The notes under the pieces were generated by a model. That model was not told the DNA's origin and did no database searches. It saw only the letters and a list, made by a program, of their open reading frames with translations. Made by a program: the position numbers and the translations under genes. Below, piece after piece: positions 2,324 to 11,266 of a stretch of 64,000 bases of DNA; the stretch's first letter is position 1, and each line of letters begins with the position of its first letter. This stretch comes from Roseobacter cerasinus (lineage in GTDB: Bacteria > Pseudomonadota > Alphaproteobacteria > Rhodobacterales > Rhodobacteraceae): the NCBI RefSeq assembly GCF_009811755.1, contig NZ_BLIV01000003.1, forward strand, positions 620,001 to 684,000, read 5' to 3'.

Positions 2324-3955
2324 TCACAGAATGTGCCACGCTCCGGTGAGCAGCGCAAAGAGCGCGATCAGCCCATTTGCGGTTGCATGTGCGACGATCG
2401 CGTCTGTGACATTGCGGCTGCGCCAGACAAGGGCCGCAAACAAAGCCCCCGCGATGGCAGCCACGATCCAGCGGTCGTGCAATGCCGCAAAAGCTGCGGT
2501 TGAGACAACCAGCCCAACCCCCAGCATGATCCCCCGGCCTGATGGGGCAATACGGCTGATCAGATAGTCGCGGAAAAACAGCTCTTCGATCACTGGCACA
2601 AAAACCGTGGTGCCGACGATGCGCGCCACCAGCCACAGCGAGAAAGCCACGCCGGTCAGACTGCCGTAGGGCGCGTCGCCCGTGTTCGGGCCGGACAGGA
2701 TCCACAGCACGGCGATCCCCAAACCTACAGCAACCGACAGCAGATCAAGCCGCCAGGCGAGATTGCGCAAGGCAGGCCACACCAGGGCCAGTGCTGCCCC
2801 CATGGCCATCGCCCGCCAGACGTAGAGCTCTCCGGGCGACTGAGACCAGGTGCTGGCCAGCAAGGCCGACGCCATGAAGACGATGAACGGCAGGATCCGC
2901 ACCACAGCCGGATCGTTCAGGAACGGCGGCAAGGTCAGCGCCCGCTCGGTCCCGGTGTCGCGGCGCAGCCAGGGCACAGCGCGAGACGCCATGATCAAGA
3001 GGAGCGAGAGGACCGTAAAGGACAGCCACCCGGCATGGCTGTGAAAAGCGCCAATCGCCAAGTCAGGTTGGCCTTCGAAGCCGATGACAAGCAGCAGCGA
3101 AATGCGAAAGACGTTGAAAACCCAGCTGAGCAGCAGGCCCAGAGGAAACAGAATGAGCGCGTGGGGAAACCGCAGATCCTTGCGGAAAAGCCCCATGTAA
3201 AGTGCAAGGAACACGGTGATCAGCATGAAGCCTTCCACGCCAGAGCACTGCGGCCCGACGGCGACGGCAAACGCATCCGTGCCGATGATCTTTTCCGCTG
3301 GCAGCGCGGAGACGACATATCCCAGAAGGCCCAGCACCCAGAGCGTGGCAAAGAAAGTGATGTCGGTGATCGCGTCGATGCCCCAGAGCGGCTGCAGCTG
3401 ATCGGACAGCTCGGGCAATGTGACGCCGATGGCCAGAAGTATCGTCAAGGCCCCCGCATTCTCCGAGAGCAGCCTGCGCCATGCGGACCAGGGTGCCACA
3501 AACAAGGCCGCGCCCGCTGCAGCGATCAGACCGCCCAAAGACCAGGAGAGCGCAGCCGCCGTCACCACGCCAGGCGCGCTGTCATCACTCAACCCGAACC
3601 ATGGCGCGAGAATGAGGGCAAATCCAGCCAGATTGAGGACAAGCCCCGTGCCCACTGCCCCTGGCTTGGCCAGAAGCGACGCAACATGGCCGCGCCGCGC
3701 GACCACGAAGATGGCCAGGACGGCCAGAACAGCCAGCACCCGCGGCACAATGCGACCAGCAAGCGCGCAGAACCACACCGGCGCAACGGCCCGGCAGGTA
3801 AACTCGAACCCGTGTTGATAGAGCAGTGAGATCGCCAGAAGCTCGGCCGCAAGCACCAGCGCCAAAAGACCCAGCACGCTGACCCGGCCAGCAGAATTTA
3901 CGGAAATGATAAGCTGTCTCACTGGCCTCTCCTTTACATCAGAGATCCGCTGCAC
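2324..3955 (-). CDS. xrtE: Exosortase E fused to a CPBP-type protease (VPEID-CTERM system)
   Basis: This is a polytopic membrane transpeptidase predicted to cut and sort proteins that carry a C-terminal VPEID-type signal. The 543-residue protein has about a dozen hydrophobic segments. The N-terminal half holds the exosortase residues: Cys237 in GPQCSG, Arg284 in FNVFRIS and His305/His307 in FHSHAGW. The C-terminal half is a CPBP (CAAX-like) intramembrane protease with EE at 457-458 in PVIEELFFRDYL, His493 in LHDRW and His523/Asn527 in AHATANG. This two-part architecture is the known exosortase E/protease family. Its likely substrate lies immediately upstream at 4053-4244. The first in-frame ATG was taken as start; a shorter N-terminus is possible. 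Confidence 0.92.
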   Translation of the reverse strand: MQRISDVKERPVRQLIISVNSAGRVSVLGLLALVLAAELLAISLLYQHGFEFTCRAVAPVWFCALAGRIVPRVLAVLAVLAIFVVARRGHVASLLAKPGAVGTGLVLNLAGFALILAPWFGLSDDSAPGVVTAAALSWSLGGLIAAAGAALFVAPWSAWRRLLSENAGALTILLAIGVTLPELSDQLQPLWGIDAITDITFFATLWVLGLLGYVVSALPAEKIIGTDAFAVAVGPQCSGVEGFMLITVFLALYMGLFRKDLRFPHALILFPLGLLLSWVFNVFRISLLLVIGFEGQPDLAIGAFHSHAGWLSFTVLSLLLIMASRAVPWLRRDTGTERALTLPPFLNDPAVVRILPFIVFMASALLASTWSQSPGELYVWRAMAMGAALALVWPALRNLAWRLDLLSVAVGLGIAVLWILSGPNTGDAPYGSLTGVAFSLWLVARIVGTTVFVPVIEELFFRDYLISRIAPSGRGIMLGVGLVVSTAAFAALHDRWIVAAIAGALFAALVWRSRNVTDAIVAHATANGLIALFALLTGAWHIL

Positions 3956-4052: not shown

Positions 4053-4244
4053 TTACGCAGACTTGCGACGGCGCTCCCAGGCCAGCAGAACAACCGCAGC
4101 CACAACAGCCAGAGCTGCTGTGCCTTCAAGTGCGCTGATTTCAGGCACTTGCGGTGTTCCGCCGGGAATGACGGTGATGGCAAAAGATGCAGGAGCTGTT
4201 GCTACAAGAGCGACTGCAGAAGCCAGAACCTTTTTCATGTCCAT
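4053..4244 (-). CDS. Minimal VPEID-type CTERM protein (63 aa)
   Basis: This is a very small exported protein, and the likely substrate of the adjacent exosortase E. Residues 1-22 form a signal peptide (MDMKKVLASAVALVATAPAS, then FA). About ten residues of mature sequence follow, then the sorting signal: VPEIS at about 34-38, a hydrophobic helix (TAALAVVAAVVLLAW) and the basic tail ERRRKSA. The tripartite signal matches the VPEID-CTERM class, with Ser in place of the final Asp. So little mature sequence remains after removal of both ends that it may act as a precursor or regulator rather than a structural protein. An AAGGAAA ribosome site precedes the ATG. Confidence 0.85.
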   Translation of the reverse strand: MDMKKVLASAVALVATAPASFAITVIPGGTPQVPEISALEGTAALAVVAAVVLLAWERRRKSA

Positions 4245-4382: not shown

Positions 4383-7166
4383 TCAGCAGATGCATTCGTA
4401 CTCGACGCCGAAGATGAACGGCTGATCTTGGCCGTCGGGCGATGTCGGATCGATGATCAGGCCGAAGATGTCGCCATCCTGAGCGACGAAGCCATCCCCT
4501 TGTGCCAAGGCAATCTGGACGATTTCATTGATGTTCTCGACCGTACCGATTTCCAGACCATCGCGAACACCGTTGTTGTTGTCCGTGACCTCCTGGAACG
4601 GGAACTCGTTGATCACGAAGGTGTCGCCGTTCATCAGAGTCCAGATGGCTTCCTGCACCTCGAAGTCAGTGTAGGTCTTGCCGTTGCCATCGCCATTGTC
4701 GACTTGAGTCTGATCGTTGTTCAGCAACCAGTTGACCGAGTCGATGTTGTCGGCATTCAGGCCCGCGCTGCCCACGGCGGCAGCATTTGCCTCGGTGGCG
4801 AGCAAGACGTTCCCGGTGCTCGGCACGAAAGCTTCCAGCGTCTGGATCGCGTCCATACAGTACGCCATCGTGTAGGAGCCCGTCGGCAGAGCCGAGTTCG
4901 AAGACGCTGTGATTTCCAGCGTGTAGGCCTCGACAAACTCACCGAGGTTTGCCCCTTGCAGCACCGTGTAGTTGACGGTCGTGCCGTCGATCAGCGCACC
5001 GATCGTCTCTTCCGAGGCATAGCCCTTGAACGTCACATCAACGTTCGCCGTGTCAATTGCACCGTCGCTGTCTTCGACCTTGAACTCGAAGGAGGCTGTC
5101 GCTGAGTCGCCAAACCCCAGCGAGGAGAACGCATCCAAACCGTCGAAGACAAATGCGTCTTCATTCCGTGTCACCGACAGGCCGGAAAAGTCAAAAGTGC
5201 CGCCGCCATCAATGTTGGCTGTACCGTCGAGCAGAATGGTCTCGCCATCGTCAATGTTCAGGCCACCCAACATGGTGATCGATACCGACGCACTGTCTGT
5301 GTCCGAGAAGTTGTCGGACAAATCGACGATGATCTGCTCGTCGGCACAGCCCATACCCGCATCATCCGTGGCGACCGGGTCAACGTTGGGGACAATCACG
5401 CCGGCGTCGTTGTCGGGCGTATTCTCACCCGCCACAACGACGATGTCGTTGATGACAGACATGCCGTCACCAATATCACGAGCGTCGCTGTCGATGTCGT
5501 CGGAGACATCATCGTCCACGTTCCGAGCGGTCAGTTGCTTGCCAGATACGGTATCGGTGAATTTAACACCATATGTGCCTGCTTGGAGGCCGGTAAAGGA
5601 ATAGTTGCCTTCTGAATCGGTTGTCGTCGTGATACCGGTGCCATTCCCGGCAGCGTCCAGCAATTCGACCTCAACGCCCTGCACACCGTTGCCAGCTCCG
5701 TCATTGTCCAGGCCATCGCGATCATCATCGCAGAAGTAGCGACCAGACAGCGATCCGGGCGGTTGTTGTGCCTCACCGGGAACAAAGCACAGATCGTCAA
5801 TCGCACCCGACCCATCGAGTTCCACATCCATGCGGACCACATTTTCCACATCCATAACAACCTGCCCCACGCCGCCATTGACAAGGTTCGGGATGTCGAA
5901 GGTCTGGGTTGTGCCATTCACAAGGGTCAACGTGATGGTACCGCCCTCTTCGGTATCGACCACCTTCAGGTCAAACACCCATGCCGGGGCGTCAAACTCA
6001 AAGGTCAGCTTGCCGCCCACCACGTCATCGGGGTCGCTCTGGTCACCATCTTCAGAAACGATCAGCACGTTGCCCAGCTGCGCCACCTGTGTTTCCAGGT
6101 CACCGTCACCACCGGTCGGGTTCTGGCTGTCGAAGATCATCGCATCGCCCGAGCCACCCATGGCGGAGATGGTCACGCCATCAATCTGAGCACCCAGGAT
6201 GTCACCGGCTGCGAACCCTTCGAAGTCCAGCTTGACGGCACCGGGTGCGTCGCATTCCTCGAACTTGACCTGCTCGAACTTGAGCGCGTCGATCCGCACG
6301 AATTCATTGCCGTCGCGCCAGGCGCGGATCTCGACGTCATCGCCTTCCGCGATCTCAAGACCCTGCAGCGTGACTTCGGAGAACCCATCGTTGTCGCCCC
6401 CCCAACCGTCAACACCGCTGTCGAGGATGACGGTCTGCTGGAACTCGCCGTTCACAAAGACCATCAGCTTGGAGTTGCCGTCGCATTCGTCCTGCACACA
6501 GATGGTCAGGTTATAAACACCGTCCTCGCCACCAAAATCGGTGGAAATCTTGCCGTCGCGACCGGAAATCTTGGCCAACTCGCCACCGGACGCCATGTCG
6601 CCTTCGACCACGTGAAAGCCGTGCAGATCCAGGCTCTCCGCCTCGACGGTGTAGGTGCAGGTGTCAGGATCCAGATCCCACTGCGGGGGGGCTGGCGGCT
6701 CGGGCGGTGTCGCACCCAAATGCTCGTATTTGATGCCGTGCCCGGTCACGTTGCAGCACCCCACAACGGTCAGGCTGACCCCGGCGGGCGGAACATCCCC
6801 GACAAAGGTGAAGTAGTCATCGCCAGCACCGGCGGCATTGTGGCCACCAATTTCGACCTCAGCCATCGTGTAGATCTTGCCGTCCGATCCTTTCACATAC
6901 CAGGCTTTTTCGATGAACATCTTGCGATGACCACCGGTCGCCACGCCGTCAATGAACGCGTTCTGGCCATATTGGTCATTCGAAATGTCACGGCTGTCGC
7001 CACGCCAGTTGTCGCCGCTCAGACGTGAGTCGTTATCGCGGACAGTCACATTCACTGTGGCCTCGCCCGGCATCACGAACTTGTCGCCATGATTGATGTT
7101 CCAGTCCCCGTTTTTAAGCAGGTCAGCTTCGCGAAACGCGGTGAAATTATAGTTCTGGTAAGTCAT
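4383..7166 (-). CDS. Large secreted multidomain protein with SdrD-B repeat and C-terminal thioester-like domain
   Basis: This is a 927-residue, very acidic, probably extracellular protein with no classical signal peptide, which suggests type I-like export. Visible segments: residues 1-150, a beta-rich N-terminal domain; 170-300, a CBM35/CBM60-like carbohydrate-binding module starting TVEAESLDLHGF; 310-462, a domain seen in many secreted proteins (DFEGFAAGDILG); 470-600, an SdrD B-like domain starting GSLSGRYFCDDDRDG; 600-715, a cadherin/Ig-like segment; and 715-927, a domain with Cys770 in MAYCMDA and Gln838 in VQEAIW. The last pair fits the [YFL]C and hydrophobic-Q-x-x-hydrophobic-W motifs of thioester adhesin domains. 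It is transcribed toward the VPEID/exosortase pair but carries no CTERM signal. The domain calls are inferred from motifs. Confidence 0.85.
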   Translation of the reverse strand: MTYQNYNFTAFREADLLKNGDWNINHGDKFVMPGEATVNVTVRDNDSRLSGDNWRGDSRDISNDQYGQNAFIDGVATGGHRKMFIEKAWYVKGSDGKIYTMAEVEIGGHNAAGAGDDYFTFVGDVPPAGVSLTVVGCCNVTGHGIKYEHLGATPPEPPAPPQWDLDPDTCTYTVEAESLDLHGFHVVEGDMASGGELAKISGRDGKISTDFGGEDGVYNLTICVQDECDGNSKLMVFVNGEFQQTVILDSGVDGWGGDNDGFSEVTLQGLEIAEGDDVEIRAWRDGNEFVRIDALKFEQVKFEECDAPGAVKLDFEGFAAGDILGAQIDGVTISAMGGSGDAMIFDSQNPTGGDGDLETQVAQLGNVLIVSEDGDQSDPDDVVGGKLTFEFDAPAWVFDLKVVDTEEGGTITLTLVNGTTQTFDIPNLVNGGVGQVVMDVENVVRMDVELDGSGAIDDLCFVPGEAQQPPGSLSGRYFCDDDRDGLDNDGAGNGVQGVEVELLDAAGNGTGITTTTDSEGNYSFTGLQAGTYGVKFTDTVSGKQLTARNVDDDVSDDIDSDARDIGDGMSVINDIVVVAGENTPDNDAGVIVPNVDPVATDDAGMGCADEQIIVDLSDNFSDTDSASVSITMLGGLNIDDGETILLDGTANIDGGGTFDFSGLSVTRNEDAFVFDGLDAFSSLGFGDSATASFEFKVEDSDGAIDTANVDVTFKGYASEETIGALIDGTTVNYTVLQGANLGEFVEAYTLEITASSNSALPTGSYTMAYCMDAIQTLEAFVPSTGNVLLATEANAAAVGSAGLNADNIDSVNWLLNNDQTQVDNGDGNGKTYTDFEVQEAIWTLMNGDTFVINEFPFQEVTDNNNGVRDGLEIGTVENINEIVQIALAQGDGFVAQDGDIFGLIIDPTSPDGQDQPFIFGVEYECIC

Positions 7167-7753
7167 CCGTATGTCCCAACTTGATACAGGTCATGCAGGA
7201 TGAGCTTTTGAGCAAAGGCAGGATGGTACCTCCCTTAAGCGCGCTCGCCACTCAACGTGGTAAAACCGCCTTAAACGCCTGACTTTCGGTAGAGAATACA
7301 AGGGCTTATGTGCCCCTCTGTTGTGTCAAAAACTAACACGCGCAGCTCAATTGCCACGACACTCGTCCCGAAACTCCTACGACGCCCCCAAACCGGTCTC
7401 TCCGCGTCCCCCGCATTGGCCTCCGTTTTATGGTCGCAACCTTACAGCTAAAATCCGCTCAAATGGTAACAAAAATTTAATTAACTTGTGATTACGGTTA
7501 AAAAAGGCACGGTTTCCTGAAAAAATCTCGTCATGGTGGTTGGTGCATCGCCAACTCAACCTCAGATTTTGCGCGAATCTCCCGACGACTCAGGTGCCGC
7601 GTGCTGAGAACCGGCTCAAACCCCCAAAGATGTGATCCCGATGTGAGTCACAAGCGTGATTGGTTTGCGGGTTGAGATCAAACCTTACGTGCGGAAATGG
7701 ACAGGCCGTGGTCTTTTCCACATTGACGCCTCCCGGCCGATCCAGTCTAGATA
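7167..7753. other. Non-coding divergent promoter region
   Basis: No convincing gene is seen. The stretch separates the leftward 927-residue gene from the rightward cobalamin-transport operon and must hold both promoters. Around 7470-7530 it is strongly AT-rich (for example TTTAATTAACTTG), unlike the GC-rich surroundings, which suits a promoter or nucleoid-protein binding region. No clear operator palindrome was recognised. Confidence 0.6.
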
Positions 7754-7950
7754 ATGGTGATGGTTCTCGACCGCCCCAAGGCGAATGAGATGAAAAGGGA
7801 ACACGGTGCGGCTGGACTACTCGACGCCAAATCCGTGACTGCCCCCGCAACTGTAAGTGGTGAGCAACCCCGATATGGACCACTGGACGCGACGTCCGGG
7901 AAGGTTCGGGAACGCGACGACCCACAAGTCAGGAGACCTGCCATCACCGG
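7754..7950 (+). promoter_or_regulatory. Cobalamin riboswitch
   Basis: This RNA element binds adenosylcobalamin and normally lowers expression of the downstream uptake genes when B12 is plentiful. The diagnostic blocks are present in order: AAAAGGGAACACGGTG, then CCGTGACTGCCCCCGCAAC followed by TGTAAG, then AAGTCAGGAGACCTGCC. It lies about 130 nt before the first gene of a B12-type ABC operon, exactly where such a switch is expected. The 5' boundary is approximate. Confidence 0.95.
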
Positions 7951-8058
7951 CGCCTATCAGTCGTCGGCATTTCAACGCGATGCAGGCGGGGTGCCTGGTC
8001 AGGAGCATATGATGGCAAAGCGGTTCCAACCGCCAAAATCCTGTTCTGCCTGCCACGC

Positions 8059-8077
8059 CCGCCTGTTTGGCGGAGGG
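8059..8077 (+). promoter_or_regulatory. Hairpin overlapping the ribosome binding site of the B12 operon
   Basis: CCGCC (8059-8063) pairs with GGCGG (8069-8073) around the loop TGTTT. The right arm contains the first bases of the GGAGGG ribosome site (8072-8077), four bases before the ATG at 8082. This could be the expression platform of the riboswitch upstream, hiding the ribosome site in the ligand-bound state. The structure is read from sequence; its role is inferred. Confidence 0.5.
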
Positions 8078-8081
8078 CCTT

Positions 8082-8477
8082 ATGGAACATCGCATAACGA
8101 TCTGCACATCCTGCCGACACAAGGGCACCACATGTCGGCCCGGATATGAACTGATCGAACGTCTGCGCCAGGCCATCGCCCTGGCCGGGGAGGCAGTTTC
8201 CGACACGTTCGAAATCTCCGGCGTTGCCTGCATGGCGGGCTGTGATCGTCCCTGCACCGTGGCCTATCACGGCACACAGAAGGCGACTTATCTCTTCGGA
8301 GACATCGATCCGAACACGGACATCAACGATCTTGTGGCTTTCGCCGAGCAATACGCCGATCTGCAAGACGGGTGGTGTTCCTCTGTGGACCGGCCCGGTA
8401 AGCTGCGCCAGACCACCCTCGCCCGCGTGCCCGCCGCGATCGTTGCGATCGAAGCCAGCAAGGCCAGGGCGTCGTGA
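8082..8477 (+). CDS. DUF1636 cysteine-rich protein, [2Fe-2S] ferredoxin-like
   Basis: A 131-residue cytoplasmic protein with cysteines at 8, 11, 18, 50, 54 and 58 (ICTSCRHKG and VACMAGCDRPC). The spacing recalls thioredoxin-fold [2Fe-2S] ferredoxins and DUF1636 metal-binding proteins. The ATG at 8082 was preferred to an upstream TTG because it has GGAGGG four bases before it. It is the first gene behind the cobalamin riboswitch and its stop overlaps the GTG start of the ABC ATPase, so it is translated with the importer. A role in reducing or handling cobalamin is plausible from context but unproven. Confidence 0.88.
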   Translation: MEHRITICTSCRHKGTTCRPGYELIERLRQAIALAGEAVSDTFEISGVACMAGCDRPCTVAYHGTQKATYLFGDIDPNTDINDLVAFAEQYADLQDGWCSSVDRPGKLRQTTLARVPAAIVAIEASKARAS

Positions 8478-9274
8478 CCGCCGCACATCTCTGCGTGCAA
8501 GACCTTTCCTGGTCGCCCAGGCGCGGATCAACCCCGCTGCTGCACCCAACCAGCTTTGATCTGGATCCGGGGCGCGTGCTGGGCATCGTCGGGCCGAACG
8601 GGGCCGGAAAGACCACGTTGCTACGGCTGCTCTACCGGTTTCACCGCCCCGTAGCCGGCAAGGTCCGCATCGATGGTGAGGACATCTGGACCCTGTCAGC
8701 ACGCGCCGTGGCACAACGGGTCGCCGCCGTTCTGCAGGAGCAACCAAGCGATTTTGCCCTGACCGTAACAGAGATCGTAACCCTGGGGCGCACACCGCAT
8801 CGGCGTGGCTTTGCCGGGACGGCGGGCGCGCAGGATCAAGCCATCATCGACAGCGCATTGGAGCGGCTGGAGCTGCAAGGACTGGCCCATCGCCATCTCG
8901 ATACACTCTCCGGTGGCGAACGTCAGAGGGTCATGGTCGCCCGCGCGGTGGCACAGCAACCACGCCTTCTGATCCTTGATGAGCCGACCAACCATCTTGA
9001 TATCCGCCATCAACTCGAAGTGCTGGACCTGATCCGCAGCCTGCCCTTGACGATCGTCACTTCTCTGCACGATCTGAACCTGGCCGCGAGCGTGTGCGAC
9101 GACCTGCTGCTTCTGCGCGAGGGGCATACCGTGGGCTTCGGGCCACCACGCCACGTGTTGTCGGAGGAAGCGGTGGCGCAGGCCTTCCGGGTGACCACGC
9201 GGCGCGAACAGCTGTCGCAGAGCGGAGCGGAGCATCTCACATTCCACCTTAAAACCAAAGGACACCTTCGATGA
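8474..9274 (+). CDS. ABC transporter ATP-binding protein, cobalamin/iron-siderophore type
   Basis: This is the energy-coupling subunit of a BtuCD/FecCDE-class importer. The 266 residues carry Walker A GPNGAGKTT at 40-48, signature LSGGE at 145-149 and Walker B LLILDEPTNHLD from 165. It starts at GTG 8474, overlapping the preceding stop codon, and its end overlaps the next gene by four bases, showing tight operon structure. The riboswitch upstream argues for cobalamin (BtuD role) rather than a ferric siderophore as substrate, although the sequence family alone cannot separate the two. Confidence 0.94.
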   Translation: MTAAHLCVQDLSWSPRRGSTPLLHPTSFDLDPGRVLGIVGPNGAGKTTLLRLLYRFHRPVAGKVRIDGEDIWTLSARAVAQRVAAVLQEQPSDFALTVTEIVTLGRTPHRRGFAGTAGAQDQAIIDSALERLELQGLAHRHLDTLSGGERQRVMVARAVAQQPRLLILDEPTNHLDIRHQLEVLDLIRSLPLTIVTSLHDLNLAASVCDDLLLLREGHTVGFGPPRHVLSEEAVAQAFRVTTRREQLSQSGAEHLTFHLKTKGHLR

Positions 9275-10206
9275 AAACACCCCTTCTGGCCACCGCCGCC
9301 GTTATCCTGTCGGCTGGCCTGACCCTGGCCGAGACCACGGTTGAAAGCTGCAATCGGACGGTCACCTTCGACGCCCCACCAAAGCGTGCCGTCTCAAACG
9401 ATGTGAACCTGACAGAGATGATGCTGGTGCTGGGTCTGGCTGACCGGATGGTGGGCTATACCGGGGTCTCGGGCTGGAAGACGCTGGATGAAGGGATGCG
9501 CGCAGGTGTTGAAGAGCTGCCCGAGCTTTCGGCCAAATACCCCTCGAAAGAGGTGCTCGTTGGCGCGGATGCCGATTTCTTCTTTGCCGGCTGGAACTAC
9601 GGCATGAAGGTCGGCGGGGAGGTGACACCCGAGACCCTGGAGCCCTTTGGCATCAAGGTCTATGAGCTGACCGAGAGCTGCGCCCATATCATGCAAAAAG
9701 ACAAATCCAGCATCGACGACATGTATGCGGATCTGATGACTCTGGGCCGCATCTTTGATGTCGAGGAGAAGGCCAGTGCGCTTGTGGACGGCTACAGGGC
9801 GGAGCTTTCAGCTTTCAGCGACGGGCTGACCATCAGCACGCCCCCACGTGTCTTTGTCTATGACAGCGGCGAAGATACGCCCTTTACGGCCGGTCGCTAT
9901 GCCATGCCCACTGCACTGATCGAAGCTGCGGGTGGGGTCAATATCATGGATGACTTTGACAAAAGCTGGGCCACCGTGACCTGGGAGGAAGTGGTCGAAC
10001 GCAATCCCGAAGTCATCGTGATCGTCAACTATGGCGAGGTCACGGCAGAGCAAAAACGCGCCTTCATGATGTCGACCCCGGCCTTTGCGGACCTCGATGC
10101 GGTCAAAAACGACCGCTTTGTGACACTGGAGTACGTCGAGGCCACCCCAGGCCCGCGCAACATTGAGGCCATTAAGACGTTGGCCCGGGCGTTCCGGGCG
10201 GACTGA
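9271..10206 (+). CDS. Periplasmic substrate-binding protein, BtuF/FepB-like
   Basis: A 311-residue binding protein of the cluster that captures cobalamin or a siderophore in the periplasm. The first 20 residues, MKTPLLATAAVILSAGLTLA, form a signal peptide. A two-lobe fold follows, with family features such as RAVSNDVNLTEMMLVLGL near the N-terminus and PEVIVIVNYGE in the second lobe. The ATG overlaps the end of the ATPase gene. Riboswitch control makes a BtuF role the best guess. No TonB-dependent outer-membrane receptor is encoded nearby, so entry through the outer membrane must rely on a gene elsewhere. Confidence 0.92.
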   Translation: MKTPLLATAAVILSAGLTLAETTVESCNRTVTFDAPPKRAVSNDVNLTEMMLVLGLADRMVGYTGVSGWKTLDEGMRAGVEELPELSAKYPSKEVLVGADADFFFAGWNYGMKVGGEVTPETLEPFGIKVYELTESCAHIMQKDKSSIDDMYADLMTLGRIFDVEEKASALVDGYRAELSAFSDGLTISTPPRVFVYDSGEDTPFTAGRYAMPTALIEAAGGVNIMDDFDKSWATVTWEEVVERNPEVIVIVNYGEVTAEQKRAFMMSTPAFADLDAVKNDRFVTLEYVEATPGPRNIEAIKTLARAFRAD

Positions 10207-10210
10207 CACC

Positions 10211-11266
10211 ATGGACAGAAGCAGGACAGCCCGCCTGCGCACAGGCAATTTTCGCGGCCCTCTGACCGTTCTGCTGGGCGGGCTGGTTCTGCTTCTCGTC
10301 TCATTGTCATTGGCCATTTCAGTTGGGGCGGTGCAGGTCCCGCTCGGCACGGTCTGGGGCATCTTTCTCGACAAGCTCTGGCCCGGGCTGATTGACCCGA
10401 CCTGGAGCAAGGGGCGCGCGGCAATTGTCTGGGATATTCGCTTTCCCCGGGCGCTGCTTGCAATGATGGTGGGCGCCGGGCTGGCGATGGTGGGCGCCAG
10501 CCTGCAGGCGGTCACCCGCAACCCGCTGGCCGACCCGCATCTGCTGGGGATTTCCTCGGGCGGCGCCTTCGGCGCCATTCTGGCGCTGCTGCATACGGGG
10601 CTGTTTACCGGCCTTCTGACGGTGCCGCTTCTTGCCTTCCTCGGCGCGCTTGGCGCGACAGCCATTGTGCTGGGTGTCTCGCGCTTTGCCGATGCCACCA
10701 GTTCGGACCGGCTCGTTCTGGCAGGCGTTGCGGTCTCTTTCATCATCATGGCGGGAGCCAATGTGCTGATCTTTCTGGGTGACCCGCGCGCAGCCCATGT
10801 GGTGGTTTTCTGGATGCTGGGCGGTCTTGGCTTGGCGCAATGGAGCCAGCTGATGTACCCGTTCATCGTGCTTCTATGCTCCGCGACCTGGCTGCTGTTT
10901 CATACTCGCGAGTTGAACGCGATGACGGTGGGGGACGAGACGGCATCGACACTTGGAATACCCGTCGCGCGCTTTCGCCTGTCTGTCTTTGTGGCTGGGG
11001 CACTGATCACCGGCGTCATGGTCGCCTTTTCCGGCATCATTGGATTTGTGGGGCTGATGGTGCCGCATGTCGTGCGTTTGCTGGTGGGCGGCGACTACCT
11101 GCGTGTTTTGACCGGTTCAGCGGTGATGGGCGCGGTCTTCCTGTTGTGGGCTGATATCGCGGCCCGAACCGTCATGGCCCCCGAAGACATACCCATCGGC
11201 ATCATCACCGGTTTGGTGGGCGGCCTCTTCTTCATCTGGCTTCTTGGGCGACGCAAGGCCGGCTAG
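10211..11266 (+). CDS. FecCD/BtuC-family ABC transporter permease
   Basis: The membrane channel of the importer, 351 residues with about ten helices. Family hallmarks include RFPRALLAMMVGAGLAMVG with TRNPLADPHLLGISSGG after it, and the ATPase-coupling stretch GFVGLMVPHVVRLLVG near the C-terminus. An earlier in-frame start at 10163 would run back into the binding-protein gene, so the ATG at 10211, four bases after that gene's stop, was chosen. It is the last gene of the riboswitch-led operon. A leftward metal operon ends 18 bp beyond it. Confidence 0.94.
   Translation: MDRSRTARLRTGNFRGPLTVLLGGLVLLLVSLSLAISVGAVQVPLGTVWGIFLDKLWPGLIDPTWSKGRAAIVWDIRFPRALLAMMVGAGLAMVGASLQAVTRNPLADPHLLGISSGGAFGAILALLHTGLFTGLLTVPLLAFLGALGATAIVLGVSRFADATSSDRLVLAGVAVSFIIMAGANVLIFLGDPRAAHVVVFWMLGGLGLAQWSQLMYPFIVLLCSATWLLFHTRELNAMTVGDETASTLGIPVARFRLSVFVAGALITGVMVAFSGIIGFVGLMVPHVVRLLVGGDYLRVLTGSAVMGAVFLLWADIAARTVMAPEDIPIGIITGLVGGLFFIWLLGRRKAG

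Follow-up and report, generated by a model that had tools for sequence, protein, structure and literature searches.

Architecture of the locus

The window, a stretch of 64,000 nucleotides from Roseobacter cerasinus, contains three genes that follow one another on the minus strand and encode a protein with a predicted C-terminal thioester domain (TED), a mini-protein of 61 residues and an exosortase E (XrtE). The first gene is an open reading frame with an ATG start and encodes 927 residues, in which an SdrD_B match and sub-threshold TED matches were found. Its limits, 4383–7166, are those given by an earlier sequence-only reading of this DNA, the gene running on the minus strand from 7166 to 4383.

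Analysis of the TED protein revealed a succession of four regions, all on the minus strand. The N-terminal domain (residues 1–155, 6702–7166) is kept in 22 aligned relatives and has neither a Pfam nor a PDB match. Its model reached a pLDDT of 87.2, while Foldseek returned no match at E ≤ 0.001 and the best VIA match had a Z score of 2.9; a missing match of this kind does not amount to a new fold. The SdrD B-like repeat noticed earlier was borne out, with residues 476–589 (5400–5741) scoring 61.9 bits against a cut-off of 29.7. It is followed by an Ig-like stretch (Big_9, residues 594–712, 5031–5387), which at 19.2 bits remains below the cut-off of 23.6, and by the TED itself (residues 715–927, 4386–5024), recognized from its predicted fold and from profile matches. 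The protein ends with the residues CIC (4386–4394). The carbohydrate-binding-like module that had also been proposed has no Pfam match in this protein, and an RTX repeat, sought in the same Pfam search, was not matched either. Inspection by eye revealed neither a signal peptide at the N-terminus, which reads MTYQNYNFTAF, nor an LPXTG motif, so that the earlier description of the protein as secreted is not backed by a visible export signal.

The mini-protein gene (4053–4238, minus strand) encodes a VPEIS tail and matches the VPEID-CTERM family TIGR04161 with 35.9 bits, above the cut-off of 33. The neighboring exosortase reported by the sequence-only reading was confirmed at 2324–3955 on the minus strand: the product scores 426.4 bits with TIGR04162 (cut-off 150) and combines an Exosortase_EpsH match with a CAAX-type, Rce1-like protease part. 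On the other side of the TED gene and divergent from it, a cobalamin riboswitch (RF00174, 140 bits, 7744–7959, plus strand) precedes plus-strand open reading frames at 8067–11266, which by eye resemble B12 or metal uptake genes.

Fold of the C-terminal domain and the predicted thioester pair

An AlphaFold2 model of residues 715–927 was obtained with a pLDDT of 85.5 and a pTM of 0.85. Comparison of this model with the PDB by Foldseek returned TED-bearing chains at ranks 1 to 23, the next match having an E-value of 1.6. VIA matched twelve solved TED entries, with Z scores from 12.5 (5a0d, 162 aligned residues, 3.5 Å) to 9.2 (6fwy), compared to 3.2 for the next, unrelated entry. At the level of prediction, the fold of this region is thus settled as that of a TED. 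The predicted fold is common to the class I domains CpTIE (5a0g), Cpa (4c0z/2xi9), SfbI (5a0l), PnTIE (5a0n) and FNE (5dcq) over nearly the whole domain; identity in the structural alignments is 9–13%. The beta-sandwich insert of about 75 residues characteristic of class II, as in the TIE protein of pLS20, is not predicted between the helix 162–176 and the strands 186–193 and 203–208; because this insert before the last strands is absent from the model, the window domain is class I-like in its predicted structure.

To cover related domains, we used the last 213 residues as a query against 59 relative genomes, of which six, own genome included, were positive. The resulting six-row alignment then served to scan genomes taken one per species (43 loci) and IMG/VR (two loci). 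Alignment A2 comprises 44 domains from several phyla. The genome scan behind 42 of its rows was seeded on two stretches that contain neither the Cys nor Gln838 nor Gln915, and its single viral row stems from a scan whose seeds included VQxAIW. It leaves out L047 (no domain match), L052 (same translation as L051), L002–L007 and L053–L073; alignment A3 leaves out L013. Judged by record title, the loci belong mostly to genera of Rhodobacterales, the others being found in Gammaproteobacteria (L017, L036), Verrucomicrobiae (L024), Anabaena (L044), Rubrivivax (L045), Tepidiphilus (L047), [Muricauda] (L049) and a Planctomycetota MAG (L050). In [Muricauda] meishanensis, the protein with the TED-like domain (L049:5611-6732) has a lipoprotein-like start by eye, and in the two IMG/VR contigs (L051, L052) the TED-like domain lies within a 1934-aa open frame with the same translation.

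Sequence profiles agree with the structural assignment at low scores. With the Pfam TED family (PF08341), the full protein matches at residues 768–848 with 16.4 bits and the domain alone reaches 19.9 bits, both below the cut-off of 22; 43 of the 44 members of A2 match at E ≤ 0.1 (best 2.1e-8) and ten at E ≤ 2.4e-4, the estimated E-value at 22 bits. The Pfam TED search returned no match in the own genome and likewise none in the 14 control genomes, which makes this negative uninformative. Such weak scores are unsurprising because the TIE protein of pLS20 itself scores just 23.6 bits with this family. Searched against PDB sequences at E ≤ 10, the A2 profile found two matches, 5a0l (SfbI, E 0.03) and 4c0z (Cpa, E 1.2), both of which are TEDs with the Cys and the Q-AIW motif aligned. 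A profile comparison between A2 and the class II TED of pLS20, meant as a positive control, failed with a probability of 0.2%.

The sequence-only reading had paired Cys770 in MAYCMDA with Gln838 in VQEAIW as the two partners of the bond. Both residues are where it placed them (codons 4859–4857 and 4655–4653, minus strand), as are the VNWLLNN and MNGD stretches. Residues 769–772 (YCMD) fit the motif [YFL]CΦζ of the bond Cys. Across A2, Cys770 is kept in 42 of 44 domains, and Gln838, Trp842 and Gln915 (codon 4424–4422, minus strand) are each kept in all of them; this conservation across several phyla makes the motifs more than a chance resemblance. In the model, Gln838 lies within the helix 120–132 and Gln915 directly before the last strand, 203–208 (domain numbering).

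Published structures bear on which glutamine would form the bond. The pairs given by Walden et al. (PMC4450167) are Cys109-Gln261 in SfbI, Cys94-Gln247 in PnTIE and Cys138-Gln267 in CpTIE. In solved TEDs as described there and by Miller et al. (PMC6194298), the bond Gln has a beta-sheet context, while the Gln of the helical TQxxΦW motif hydrogen-bonds the Cys backbone. According to Walden et al. (PMC4450167), the bond requires neither the Gln nor the Trp of the TQxA(I/V)W motif, a statement repeated by Miller et al. (PMC6194298), who found that these two residues also flank the bond in class II domains. The last residues aligned by VIA pair position 209 of our model with residues 275 of CpTIE, 255 of PnTIE and 270 of SfbI. 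If the last strand is ungapped, Gln915 falls on Gln267 of CpTIE, on Gln247 of PnTIE and on residue 262 of SfbI, one off Gln261. The Cys-to-Gln spacing is 145 residues in the window protein and 113–158 in the family (median 138); three crystal structures have spacings of 129, 152 and 153. Because the bond Gln of solved TEDs matches the late-strand Gln915 and the helical motif Gln is inessential, the predicted thioester pair is most likely Cys770-Gln915. The earlier proposal thus stands for the TED fold, the conserved Cys and a repeat-bearing, surface-type protein in an alphaproteobacterium, but not for Gln838, which sits in the helical TQxxΦW-type motif.

The fold could also persist with no working thioester, the domain acting as a non-covalent lectin-like or protein-binding module in which Cys770 has a structural role. 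Two natural TED variants without the bond Cys speak for it, L033 with a Tyr and L040 with a Gly at this position, which keep the Gln residues, Gln915 included, and the Trp842 position; the D-Q-P-F-I surroundings of Gln915 also fit only partly the ΦQζΦΦ pattern, a motif that its authors describe as weak and frequently not obvious in class II. We nevertheless consider such a module quite improbable, given the near-invariant Cys and the invariant Gln915 in A2, and given the TED proteins of cassettes with the neighboring genes described below, in which the Cys is present in 25 of 25 and the Cys/Gln pair occurs without exception.

Recurrence of the mini-protein and exosortase E genes

The association of the TED gene with the mini-protein and XrtE genes is recurrent. 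Among 43 loci, a count that excludes the three plasmid loci L133–L135, a VPEI-tailed mini-protein gene follows the TED gene on the same strand within 1.3 kb in 24, with 20 VPEIS and four VPEID tails as counted by hand. XrtE comes next on the same strand in 19 loci, all of which have the mini-protein. The searched stretch contains no mini-protein gene in 19 loci, including three with two bases or fewer downstream (L044, L045, L047), and no XrtE in 24. The three plasmid loci all carry the mini-protein, annotated as hypothetical in the three plasmid records examined, and two of them carry XrtE. In six loci (L020, L032, L039, L041, L046 and L133), a VPEIS mini-protein follows the TED gene and XrtE is absent from the searched stretch.

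Analysis of 394 genomes of the window's family, own genome included, identified a TED in 21 and an XrtE over the cut-off in 42. Both were present in 14 genomes, compared to 2.2 expected (hypergeometric p 1.9e-10), leaving seven of the 21 TED genomes with no XrtE over the cut-off and 28 of the 42 XrtE genomes with no TED match. The two matches are 403–521 bp apart in 13 of these 14 genomes, on one strand in 12 and convergent in G270; in the remaining genome, G188, they lie on different contigs.

The window XrtE and mini-protein both exceed the cut-offs of the exosortase E/VPEID-CTERM system (TIGR04162, TIGR04161), from whose arrangement elsewhere the TED cassettes differ. Their tails are mostly VPEIS (20/24) and their genes follow the order TED, mini-protein, XrtE on one strand. 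In the 28 XrtE genomes with no TED, by contrast, a reading of the neighboring genes revealed a VPEID mini-protein beside XrtE in 22, a VPEV tail in one and none in five, and the VPEID gene is convergent with xrtE in 21 of the 22. An XrtE tree built from 56 sequences (open frames of at least 350 aa, three of the 56 rows being copies of others) requires three changes of the TED-cassette label, compared to a mean of 18.9 after shuffling, with none of 500 shuffles as low; L098 (G188) was labelled as other despite the TED on another contig there. As judged from these sequences, TED-linked XrtEs group apart, which neither shows nor excludes a single origin.

These results weigh on the possibility that the TED and XrtE genes are mere neighbors, independent surface genes transferred together on islands or plasmids. 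The TED gene does occur on four plasmid records, where it is annotated as an SdrD B-like domain-containing protein in three and as hypothetical in one; each part is also found without the other, and the flanks vary. Besides TED and XrtE, no open reading frame of at least 100 aa recurs in more than five other loci. However, order and spacing are constant over many genera, with the narrow range of distances given above, and the XrtEs of TED cassettes form a separate lineage, so we hold a mere neighborhood through shared transfer to be somewhat unlikely.

Two direct links between the TED protein and XrtE were considered and rejected. The TED protein has no TIGR04161 match at E ≤ 1 and hence no VPEID-CTERM tail, and the mini-protein is the sole match over the cut-off in its own genome; for this reason, the tail test speaks against the TED protein as a substrate of XrtE. 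The terminal CxC residues, found in 24 of 25 cassette members, also occur in seven of 19 other TED proteins and are therefore not specific to the cassette.

Export, polarity and proposed function

In Gram-positive adhesins, the TED is N-terminal and the anchor C-terminal. The window domain shares with class I TEDs the YCxD Cys, a Gln near the C-terminal strand and the helical Q-AIW motif, and its protein shares with the Gram-positive TIE proteins (BaTIE, TIE of pLS20) the combination of a TED with Ig- and SdrD-like stalk repeats. It differs by its diderm host and by its reversed polarity: instead of an N-terminal TED after a signal peptide and a C-terminal LPXTG for a sortase, it has a C-terminal TED ending in CIC, and its export would probably follow the type I route. 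By its predicted fold, the domain is a true TED in a Gram-negative bacterium, in which host, polarity, probable export and partner genes differ from those of known TEDs, while the chemistry concerned is of a kind already known.

Type I export is inferred from the lack of a visible signal peptide and from the type I genes next to the TED gene of four relatives. ABC and HlyD genes are adjacent in L017, L018 and L036, and the plasmid of Rhodobacter sp. CZR27 (L134), as annotated, carries in a row ABC, HlyD, TED, mini-protein and XrtE genes. In L024, an ABC gene beside the TED gene is cut by the locus edge. No type I genes lie beside the TED gene of the window, and the own genome has one PrtD-type ABC protein over the cut-off, on another contig. 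ABC matches in L008, L012, L016 and L023, with 27–34% identity over about 200–230 residues, were not taken as evidence of type I secretion. Since type I substrates exit with the C-terminus first, the TED would be at the leading end and reach the outer tip. The giant Gram-negative adhesins secreted by type I systems likewise combine repeats with no visible signal peptide and adjoining ABC/HlyD genes, as in the four relatives, but the window protein has no RTX match and its N-terminal domain corresponds to no known retention module in Pfam.

Taken as a whole, the locus probably encodes a fibrillar surface protein with a covalent grip. Cys770 and Gln915 would form an internal thioester in the class I-like TED, and a target amine would open it to give a covalent link. 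The SdrD_B and Ig-like repeats would act as a stalk with the conserved N-terminal domain at the far end, and a type I system would deliver the TED to the outer tip. The protein would work together with the VPEIS/VPEID mini-protein and the distinct XrtE lineage; surface retention would probably include the processing of the mini-protein by XrtE.

The orientation could also be the opposite. The C-terminal TED would then be the anchor itself and react with an amine of the cell's own surface, perhaps that of the XrtE-processed mini-protein, leaving the N-terminal domain distal. Its location where Gram-positive adhesins carry their anchor, its repeated association with the mini-protein and XrtE genes and the lack of any other visible anchor in the protein would fit this arrangement. 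Yet the TED also occurs in the 19 of 43 loci that have no mini-protein, it lies beside type I genes in L017, L018 and L036 with no XrtE, and the mature mini-protein of the window contains no Lys by eye; an anchoring TED therefore appears unlikely, and an outward-facing TED is preferred.

To our knowledge, the reactive thioester "harpoon" domain has so far been described in Gram-positive bacteria. A search of titles and abstract openings in the open-licence PMC literature returned no report of TEDs in Gram-negatives, and a search of the open-licence PMC literature found no paper for "VPEID-CTERM"; a survey of isopeptide bonds whose scope includes Gram-negatives mentions the TED in its figure legends (PMC12617251). 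Through TEDs of Rhodobacterales, Gammaproteobacteria, Verrucomicrobiae and further groups, the range of covalent adhesion would come to include environmental diderms, and the recurrent tie to XrtE makes the purpose of exosortase E directly testable through three neighboring genes. A more specific proposal, which we advance only tentatively, is that in diderms a C-terminal thioester harpoon exported by type I secretion is served by a dedicated XrtE lineage and a VPEIS mini-protein that prepare the surface holding it. If true, it would join two systems with no earlier link in the literature searched and give the TED-linked exosortase lineage a role.

Further genes lie close to the TED gene in some relatives. 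In two gammaproteobacteria, a 2OG-Fe(II) oxygenase gene (PF13759; L017:1256-1927 and L036:6729-7472) is located between the TED and type I genes, and its product is possibly a modifying enzyme; the family was assigned by a test of the L017 gene, which the L036 open reading frame matches. Proteins with a Hint domain, often type I substrates, are encoded beside the TED genes of L011 (2–889) and L133 (7142–8296); the first, the one protein tested, has an RTX match, and the second was assigned from its annotation alone.
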